In this document: in pieces, positions 15,051-24,713 of the stretch
Layout: each line of letters begins with the position of its first letter
Numbering within the stretch: the first letter of the stretch is position 1
Origin: a virus
Direction: 5' to 3' (one strand)
IMG/VR virus record: IMGVR_UViG_3300007960_000176
Coordinates: 1 to 24,713 of that record
Length of the DNA stretch: 24,713 nucleotides
Translations under genes and position numbers: made by a program
The notes under the pieces: model-generated
What the model saw: the letters and a program-made list of their open reading frames with translations, nothing else
The model's database searches: none
Told to the model about the DNA's origin: nothing

Positions 15051-15077
15051 CTTTTTACCTCATTAAAGATGATGCCC

Positions 15078-15140
15078 AAATAAAATGCACTGGCAGGGGT
15101 GAGGGCTTACCCTTTTCGATGCGCTACTCTAGCCAGTGCA
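15078..15140 (-). terminator. rho-independent terminator with nested hairpin after the capsid gene
   Basis: Perfect 9-base arms TGCACTGGC (15086-15094) and GCCAGTGCA (15132-15140) enclose 37 bases. That loop contains a second hairpin (GGGTGA 15097-15102, TTACCC 15107-15112, with GGGC between them). On the minus strand the outer stem is followed by TTTTATTT. It lies 7 bases after the capsid stop, so it would end or thin the early part of the head transcript, or protect its 3' end. Confidence 0.8.
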
Positions 15141-21889: not shown

Positions 21890-22279
21890 CTAGCTAATTT
21901 TCACATTCACATCAGGAATGATGTTTTTACCAGTATCATCCTTAATGACAATGGTAGCATTTCCATCACCAATCTGAGGAAAGTTGTTTGCAAACCTTAA
22001 CAGATAGGCAAGAGCAGCTGGAGTCCCATTCTTTCCTTTTGCTTGAATGAAAAGAGCCTCAGACATCTGCTTAATACCTTGGACTTTGCCATAGTTGAAG
22101 TGTTCCATGAACGCTTCTTGATCCGCGGCGGGTAGGTCTTCCCATTTAGTAGAGTACCCTTCAAGGATCTCTTCCTTGGAGATACCATGCTTTGCCATTT
22201 GGCCCACTTCAGAAAGAATCGCATCATTAAATATGCTGCAATTACTTCTGTTTACATGTTGTCCGTAATAAATGGCCAT
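21890..22279 (-). CDS. small terminase subunit
   Basis: A 129-residue protein directly upstream of the large terminase and the first gene of the minus-strand operon. N-terminal residues (AILSEVGQMAKHGISKEEILEGYS) fit a helix-turn-helix for binding packaging sites. The middle has a helix pair (MSEALFIQAKGKNGTPAALAYLLRFA), an oligomerisation segment common to small terminases. The C-terminal 25 residues (TIVIKDDTGKNIIPDVNVKI) form a tail that likely contacts TerL. The ribosome site is weak. It would recognise the genome for cutting by TerL. Confidence 0.82.
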   Translation of the reverse strand: MAIYYGQHVNRSNCSIFNDAILSEVGQMAKHGISKEEILEGYSTKWEDLPAADQEAFMEHFNYGKVQGIKQMSEALFIQAKGKNGTPAALAYLLRFANNFPQIGDGNATIVIKDDTGKNIIPDVNVKIS

Positions 22280-22567
22280 TTGCTGATACTACTTTTTGAC
22301 AGTCCTTTTGTTTTTGGGCGAAAATGTAATTATTTGAGACTAATTTTAGCTGGCACTTGACAAAAAGTAAATAGATGCAGGAGTTGAAATCGATATTTTT
22401 TTGAAAATTTTCAATTTTTTTTGAAAAAAAATTTTAGAATTGTGTCATTTTTTGATTTTTGAGGTAATTTCAGTCATAGGTACCGCCCCCTGGGGTAGCA
22501 TAATGTAAAACATTCAATTCTACCGACTACCCTAAGAAAATCTTATGGATAAATTTGGTATAAAGGG

Positions 22568-22596
22568 TAGACGACCCCAGCCAACTGGCGTATAAT
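22568..22596 (+). promoter_or_regulatory. sigma70-like promoter of the plus-strand cassette
   Basis: TAGACG (22568-22573) and a perfect TATAAT (22591-22596) are separated by 17 bases. The -35 has four of six consensus bases. Transcription would start near 22603 and give a leader of about 135 bases. It is the only good pair upstream of the cassette. Confidence 0.65.
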
Positions 22597-22625
22597 ATCT
22601 TCAACGGTTAGGGAAAACCAGCCAA

Positions 22626-22640
22626 CTACCCAAGAGGTAG
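22626..22640 (+). promoter_or_regulatory. boxB-like hairpin in the leader
   Basis: CTACC-CAAGA-GGTAG is a 5-base stem with a 5-base loop, about 24 bases into the predicted transcript and 17 bases before the boxA. Size and place match boxB hairpins of antitermination leaders. The loop is not a clear GNRA-type lambda boxB loop. Confidence 0.45.
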
Positions 22641-22657
22641 AAGGGGCCAGGAGGCCA

Positions 22658-22669
22658 GCTCTTTAACAA
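22658..22669 (+). promoter_or_regulatory. rrn-type boxA (Nus factor site)
   Basis: GCTCTTTAACAA is identical over 12 bases to the core of the boxA in enterobacterial rRNA leaders, as I know it. It lies between the boxB-like hairpin and the hairpin at 22698-22710. In rRNA operons the order is boxB, boxA, boxC, as here. NusB/NusE (S10) would bind it. The match is direct; the function is inferred. Confidence 0.6.
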
Positions 22670-22697
22670 AATGTATAGTATAGTACCATATGGGTCA

Positions 22698-22710
22698 CCC
22701 CGCTGTGGGG
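22698..22710 (+). promoter_or_regulatory. GC hairpin with boxC-like sequence in the leader
   Basis: CCCC-GCTGT-GGGG forms a 4-base stem with a 5-base loop. It includes CTGTGGG, which matches the rrn boxC element (TGTGTGGG) at six of eight positions. The palindrome GCGGCCGC follows at 22710-22717. No T-run follows, so it is not an intrinsic terminator. The 5' arm lies 14 bases upstream of the GAGG site of the first gene. Confidence 0.4.
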
Positions 22711-22737
22711 CGGCCGCAAACCAAGAGGAATATAGTC

Positions 22738-23367
22738 ATGTCATTTACAAAAGAGCAACGTAGCCAGTATCGCACCCTTATCAGCATGTTTCATCCTGAC
22801 AGAGTGCCTGATGACTTCAAGGATACTGCGAACAAAATCTGCCAGATACTGAACAAGGCCAACGATGCTGTAGACTGGTTCACCATCTCAGACATTCTTA
22901 GATTGGTGGGCAAGTACGGGATAACCAAAAACAGCTATGATAACATCAATCAGCTGTGGGAGGATTGGGACAATATCCCAAAAACCCAGCAATCCCGCGC
23001 CAAAGCCGAGCCAAAAGCAAAGCCAAAAGCAGAGCCTCTCAACCAAGAGATTCTGGCCAAGGCTAAGGAAAAGCAACAGGCTGAGGGTTGGGATCGAAAG
23101 AAAACCGCGTCCTGGCTTGGATTCGTCTACGACCTATTTGGTAAGGATGCCAAACTTTATCTAGATGAAATTTTCAAGAAGCAATCTAGCGGAAAGGCAA
23201 AAACTGGTTGGACAGCCCAACTATATGAAAGGCTGGCACAAGGCCCGATGAGCATGGAGGAGCTGGAGGAGTGGATCAAGTCCACAGAGTCCAAGAACGT
23301 AGCAGCCCACAAAAGTCACTACTGGGCAATCTGCGAGCTGGCCAATACCATCCACGCTAAAAAGTAG
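22738..23367 (+). CDS. J-domain-like (HPD motif) protein, first gene of the plus cassette
   Basis: A 209-residue protein started at the ATG at 22738, which has AGAGGA 8 bases upstream. An in-frame ATG at 22690 would put the leader hairpin in the coding sequence and has no ribosome site. Residues 8-40 (QYRTLISMFHPDRVPDDF, then ICQILNKANDAV) match J-domain helix II, the HPD motif and helix III. A full helix I seems absent. Residues ~88-105 are an AKAEPKAKPKAEP linker. The rest is helical with GWDRKKTASWLGFVYDLFG and SMEELEEWIKSTESKN, a possible small DNA- or protein-binding domain. It would bring host Hsp70 (DnaK) to a phage process. The family of the C-terminal part is unknown. Confidence 0.72.
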   Translation: MSFTKEQRSQYRTLISMFHPDRVPDDFKDTANKICQILNKANDAVDWFTISDILRLVGKYGITKNSYDNINQLWEDWDNIPKTQQSRAKAEPKAKPKAEPLNQEILAKAKEKQQAEGWDRKKTASWLGFVYDLFGKDAKLYLDEIFKKQSSGKAKTGWTAQLYERLAQGPMSMEELEEWIKSTESKNVAAHKSHYWAICELANTIHAKK

Positions 23368-23376
23368 TATAATATA

Positions 23377-23396
23377 GGGGAGGGGCAACCCTCCCC
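23377..23396 (+). other. perfect hairpin with GCAA tetraloop between cassette genes
   Basis: GGGGAGGG (23377-23384), GCAA (23385-23388) and CCCTCCCC (23389-23396) form an 8-base perfect stem with a GNRA tetraloop. It lies 9 bases after the stop of the J-domain gene and 17 before the next ATG. No T-run follows, so it may stabilise the upstream mRNA or set relative expression. TATAAT at 23368-23373 precedes it, but its -35 is poor (ATACCA). Confidence 0.65.
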
Positions 23397-23908: not shown

Positions 23909-23941
23909 AAAAGGCAGTTCCAGAAATGGGCTGCCTTTTTT
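23909..23941. terminator. bidirectional intrinsic terminator between cassette and rusA
   Basis: AAAAGGCAG (23909-23917) pairs with CTGCCTTTT (23931-23939). The loop itself can fold as CCA-GAAA-TGG with a GNRA tetraloop. A run of six T follows on the plus strand, and the minus strand has TTTTATT after the stem. It can stop the cassette transcript and the convergent rusA transcript. Confidence 0.9.
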
Positions 23942-24588: not shown

Positions 24589-24611
24589 CCCCCCCCCCCC
24601 CCCCCCCCCCC
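24589..24611 (+). repeat. run of 23 C (poly-G on the minus strand)
   Basis: An uninterrupted C23 run, followed by GCCCCCCGGGGGC. It is either a real unstable tract (G-quadruplex forming on the minus strand) or an assembly or sequencing artefact. Confidence 0.7.
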
Positions 24612-24713
24612 GCCCCCCGGGGGCGGCGCCCCTCCCCTTTTTTACTCCAATACCCCCAAAAAAAAAATAAAAATAAGAAAGGCCTGATTGTCCCCCCCTC
24701 CCATTTTTTATAA

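Follow-up and report, generated by a model that had tools for sequence, protein, structure and literature searches.

Antitermination by Nus factors in phages is usually told through the example of lambda N. We know of no role for the boxB of rrn leaders, and, to our knowledge, HK022 put RNA, a cis-acting structured leader RNA that acts without a phage protein, needs no Nus factors. In rrn leaders, boxA has been described as necessary and sufficient for recruiting the factors, the presence of boxB has been called puzzling, and boxC has been defined as UCUGUGUGGG with at most two mismatches, lying 18-19 nt after boxA (PMC10250234). A boxA can also repress in the cell, as at suhB, whose 5' UTR carries it ahead of a protein-coding gene (Baniulyte et al. 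2017, PMC5725501). For the phiEco32-like phage 7-11, an antitermination strategy has been proposed by its authors and remains to be defined (PMC8948821).

An rrn-type boxA in an early-operon leader

The window analyzed here is the whole 24.7-kb record (24,713 nt, IMGVR_UViG_3300007960_000176) of an uncultured tailed phage. Virion genes run leftward, starting at a likely terminase small subunit gene (21890-22279), and a protein-coding early operon of ~1.3 kb runs rightward from 22738 to an intrinsic terminator that faces the convergent rusA gene. A promoter and leader occupy the 460-bp gap between the divergent terminase and early genes. The promoter, boxB-like hairpin, boxA, and boxC-like hairpin listed in a preliminary description of this DNA were all found in place, together with two hairpins absent from that list (H1 and H3). 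The features are as follows:

22568-22596, plus strand: sigma70-like promoter TAGACG-17-TATAAT (-35 box 22568-22573, -10 box 22591-22596), assigned by consensus match only
22606-22623, plus strand: hairpin H1
22626-22640, plus strand: hairpin H2, CTACC-CAAGA-GGTAG, the boxB-like hairpin of the preliminary description
22645-22656, plus strand: hairpin H3, GGCC-AGGA-GGCC, ending directly before boxA
22658-22669, plus strand: rrn-type boxA, GCTCTTTAACAA
22660-22685, plus strand: 26-nt block TCTTTAACAAAATGTATAGTATAGTA, comprising the boxA core and 16 further nt, identical in every leader-bearing relative
22694-22714, plus strand: hairpin H4, GTCACCCC-GCTGT-GGGGCGGC, whose inner part CCCC-GCTGT-GGGG (22698-22710) is the boxC-like hairpin of the preliminary description
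22724-22729, plus strand: Shine-Dalgarno-like AGAGGA, read from the sequence
22738-23367, plus strand: first early gene (209 aa), with a weak J-domain-like N-terminus (HPD; DnaJ E value 0.023, below the cut-off)
23909-23939, plus strand: intrinsic terminator closing the early operon

The boxA matches exactly the consensus GYTCTTTAANA (PMC5725501), which is gammaproteobacterial and may not be that of the host. This is the only match in the window, where shuffled sequences lead one to expect 0.18 (at least one match in 18 of 100 shuffles), so that the motif match by itself is mildly improbable and is weak evidence; it is the position in the leader and the conservation that carry weight. The boxA stands in a putative leader, read from the sequence, behind the consensus-assigned promoter, and lies ~55 nt from the ribosome binding site of the first early gene, with a hairpin in between. 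The overall fold of the leader is not unusually stable in RNA folding (z -0.67), and its single hairpins are conserved despite local sequence change.

Like the E. coli rrn leader (boxB-boxA-boxC), this leader has the boxA GCTCTTTAACAA, hairpins just upstream of it (H1-H3, as in rrn leaders), and a nearby sigma70-like promoter. It differs in being part of an mRNA, in lacking both a boxC at 18-19 nt and an rRNA leader-trailer helix, and in adding an invariant 16 nt and a hairpin ahead of the ribosome binding site. Rfam identified no rRNA in the window and the leader precedes protein genes, so it does not belong to an rRNA operon. The order boxB-boxA-boxC proposed in the preliminary description is a resemblance only. 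Its boxA is real and the central inference drawn from it is reasonable, but its boxC falls, since the sequence in H4 has three mismatches to UCUGUGUGGG, lies 30-31 nt after boxA instead of 18-19 nt, and forms half of a conserved local hairpin. Shuffled sequences equal this boxC match in 13% of cases, and among the matches listed, a boxC with at most two mismatches was present in only 1 of 43 boxA-bearing viral leaders.

The leader shares with the suhB 5' UTR a boxA ahead of a protein-coding gene; the suhB boxA adjoins the Shine-Dalgarno sequence (PMC5725501), whereas the phage boxA is ~55 nt away from it with a hairpin between. With the lambda nut site and N it shares an early leader containing boxA and hairpins, but the order of elements is different, the boxA is of rrn type, and no N-like protein family was found among the early proteins tested, although H4 does follow boxA. 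HK022 put RNA, similar as a structured leader, is not known to have a boxA-based mechanism.

Several other features of the window were observed. A strong hairpin, GGGGAGGG-GCAA-CCCTCCCC, lies between the first and second early genes (23377-23396) and is not followed by a run of T. An int-alpA RNA (Rfam RF02996) was detected above the gathering threshold (44.4 bits) at 15074-15139 on the minus strand, directly downstream of the major capsid gene. The C-rich, low-complexity end of the window (24590-24713) may be an assembly artefact because similarity to a near-identical record ends at 24632.

Conservation of boxA and hairpins in related phages

The near-identical record, 3300007541_007373, keeps the whole leader except for one G of the last hairpin. 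A second phage, represented by the near-identical records 3300001605_000055 (51 kb, hereafter G001) and 3300002220_000365, has the same gene order, with a terminase 89% identical to that of the window phage, a first early protein 57% identical, and a homologous promoter (TAGACT-16-TATACT) in the same place. The 26-mer TCTTTAACAAAATGTATAGTATAGTA is identical in G001, whereas only 57 of the 115 other aligned leader positions are, and an identical run of 26 did not arise in any of 200,000 simulations at that rate. Within boxA, TCTTTAACAA is identical in both phages, and the G001 boxA (GATCTTTAACA) departs from the gammaproteobacterial consensus GYTCTTTAANA by one base, at Y. Judging from the sequences, the boxA is most likely a putative NusB-NusE binding site that has been under selection in one diverged relative.

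All four hairpins are retained in G001 with altered sequences. H1 is kept in changed form, H2 is CUACC-CAAGA-GGUAG in the window and CCACUC-CAAAGC-GGGUGG in G001, H3 is GGCC-AGGA-GGCC and AGGCU-UGG-AGCCU, and H4 is GUCACCCC-GCUGU-GGGGCGGC and GUCACCC-GUUGU-GGGUGAC, respectively. The summed hairpin energy of G001 was matched by none of 2000 sequences simulated with equal mutation (H3 taken singly was not significant, p 0.09); the comparison involves two distinct leader sequences and is thus strong for these phages without being a phylogenetic covariation test. The CTACC/GGTAG copies at 22494-22640, which form a possible operator array, are not kept in G001.

A third phage, L280 (3300021956_000025), also has the same gene order (terminase 73% and first early protein 56% identical) and a promoter region homologous to that of the window, AACCAGCCRACTAC included. 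Its short leader lacks boxA; in the 120 nt nearest the gene, no sequence comes closer than six mismatches. Therefore, boxA was gained or lost inside this phage group, and its conservation among relatives is partial, with an identical core in G001 and no boxA in L280. The preliminary description named lack of conservation in relatives as a refuting outcome, and on that criterion the evidence is mixed. In the terminase relatives L281-L289, several of which are short fragments, no boxA match was found in a leader-like context. A BLAST search of the window leader against named phages gave nothing exceeding chance, no relative of the first early protein turned up among named phages or GTDB genomes, and a search of GTDB with the terminase gave two distant matches only. 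The 18-mer TCTTTAACAANATGTATA had 25 matches in viral contigs outside the family; inspected by eye, these lack the surroundings of a leader and resemble chance or coding matches.

rrn-type boxA in leaders of other phages

When named phages were searched by BLAST with the E. coli rrn leader and records of real rRNA were set aside, sites emerged in T7-like, T5-like, and phiEco32-like phages. The only consensus match of T7 (813-823) lies between promoter A3 and gene 0.3; this phage is unrelated to the window phage, but its early leader likewise has one rrn-type boxA between the early promoters and the first gene, with a hairpin upstream. The early region of T7 is long. T3 has one match (781-791), after A3, and SP6 has two (656 and 926), before and after the first annotated gene. 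In all three phages, these sole consensus matches lie where the early region begins. In the T5-like phage IME260, boxA copies are present in the terminal repeats, one of them close behind a TTGACA-TATTAT-like promoter. A series of four boxA was found in phiEco32 (NC_010324, 73609-74273, minus strand) and one of five in LAMP (MG673519, 66745-67445, minus strand), in both cases where no genes are annotated, and several copies follow a sigma70-like promoter. No consensus match is present in N4, which transcribes its early genes with its own polymerase. The reversed consensus pattern has at most one match per genome in these named phages.

The exact 15-mer GCTCTTTAACAATTT had at least 120 matches in 2.9 million viral contigs, compared with 100 for the reversed control. 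Among the matches listed, which are a sample including a few near-duplicates, 50 of 81 were intergenic versus 8 of 80 controls (Fisher p 3e-12), and 4 of 81 were inside a gene on the same strand versus 22 of 80 (Fisher p 9e-5), with genes called as greedy open reading frames, so that these proportions are approximate. Sites among the matches listed often stood directly behind a sigma70-like promoter, and the 50 nt upstream of boxA were folded (mean z -1.45, n=42, near-duplicates removed) in comparison with other offsets (z -0.18, -0.56, and -0.34; p 2e-5 to 1e-3). A boxA ahead of a tRNA array was present in 6 of 81 matches listed, two of the six being the same sequence, and in 0 of 80 controls; these arrays, of 2-3 genes (contigs L086, L099, L058, L079, L096, and L105), have a strong sigma70-like promoter in several cases. 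A recurring family of leaders with GCTCTTTAACAATTTRGAAAGTCGGAA was also observed in viral contigs (L059, L064, L103, and L112).

An rrn-type boxA is thus common in phage leaders, which suggests that the host rRNA antitermination machinery is often borrowed by phages. The preliminary description considered such a leader to be rarely, if ever, reported for phages. This may hold for the searchable literature, as we found no description of an rrn-type boxA in phage leaders in open-access papers (older or subscription papers may note the boxA of T7 or T5), but the sites themselves are common, T7 included. The value of the finding is in the pattern across phages more than in this single leader.

Possible roles of the leader

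We lean towards the view that the early-operon leader RNA is structured and that its rrn-type boxA is genuine and would recruit the host Nus complex, with Rho-resistant transcription as a likely result. Neither an RNA polymerase nor a sigma factor turned up in the G001 non-structural proteins scanned, so host RNA polymerase is probably used and would initiate just past the promoter at 22568-22596. By analogy with the E. coli literature on Nus binding and complex assembly, the boxA at 22658-22669, displayed between hairpins, would bind host NusB-NusE (S10) as the leader emerges, and an rrn-type complex containing NusA, NusG, and SuhB would then loop the leader onto the polymerase without the aid of an N-like phage protein. 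The early operon would then likely be transcribed fast and in a Rho-resistant manner. Downstream of boxA, the invariant 16 nt make up a second conserved part, and the same solution may recur in many unrelated phages. L280, whose downstream gene is just as closely related (56%) and which has no boxA, counts against this explanation. The one-base departure of the G001 boxA, the shortness of the operon, and the presence of the leader in only two distinct sequences point the same way.

The alternative that survives best accepts the boxA as a real Nus site and proposes that it acts as at suhB and lambda nutL-N, with the looped RNA repressing translation of the first early gene and Rho termination being promoted inside it, so that this gene would be throttled or tied to the host Nus supply. 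Since the operon is ~1.3 kb long, translated, and ended by a terminator facing rusA, a need for long-range read-through is hardly obvious; the boxA lies ~55 nt ahead of the ribosome binding site of a translated gene, and simple occlusion is reportedly not the explanation at suhB, as judged from constructs in which boxA and the Shine-Dalgarno sequence were moved apart (PMC5725501). Repression is for these reasons a serious rival, yet upstream hairpins have not been described for suhB and boxA often stands ahead of tRNA arrays or long early regions, where translational repression fits poorly, and we regard it as rather unlikely.

Conservation of the 26-mer for some other cause, such as a second promoter, a phage sigma site, a protein-binding site, or a short frame (MYSIV...RCG), with the likeness to boxA being incidental, appears less probable still. 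The 16 nt downstream are as conserved as boxA itself, AATGTATA within the block is the same as the core of tAATGTAtA, the consensus for phiEco32 gp36 promoters (PMC8948821), and the two phages share a colinear frame, opened by the ATG at 22672, over 13 codons up to RCG. However, the block starts on its left with the boxA core, and the match to the boxA consensus is exact. A gp36-type promoter for the invariant 16 nt gained no support, as each genome has a single copy of AATGTATAGTATAGTA, the 16-mer, and the protein scan turned up no sigma factor, and the short frame has all four wobble positions unchanged and no well-placed Shine-Dalgarno sequence. It is very improbable that H2 and its neighbors are DNA operators of an early-promoter repressor in a leader with no Nus role, even though six CTACC/GGTAG copies occur in 150 bp (200 shuffles never gave more than four) and one overlaps the -35 box, because G001 keeps the pairing of H2 but not its sequence, which suits an RNA and led us to reject the operator, and because the conservation of boxA would be left unexplained.

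Regarding recruitment of the host complex more broadly, tRNA arrays would be expected to require protection from Rho, and Rho resistance is the natural reading there and for long early regions. There is perhaps a nearly even chance that many unrelated phage families, that of the window phage among them, have independently placed a boxA, usually behind a hairpin, in the leaders of early mRNAs or tRNA arrays, thereby seizing the host complex without a phage antiterminator. If this is true, it would constitute a general N-independent path to Rho resistance in early infection. The boxA series of phiEco32 and LAMP are a candidate for the antitermination of phiEco32-like phages (cf. PMC8948821). Should leaders with an rrn-type boxA be functional, textbook lytic phages such as T7 and T5 may be using the host rRNA machinery directly, and such leaders would help to explain how their early transcripts escape from Rho.
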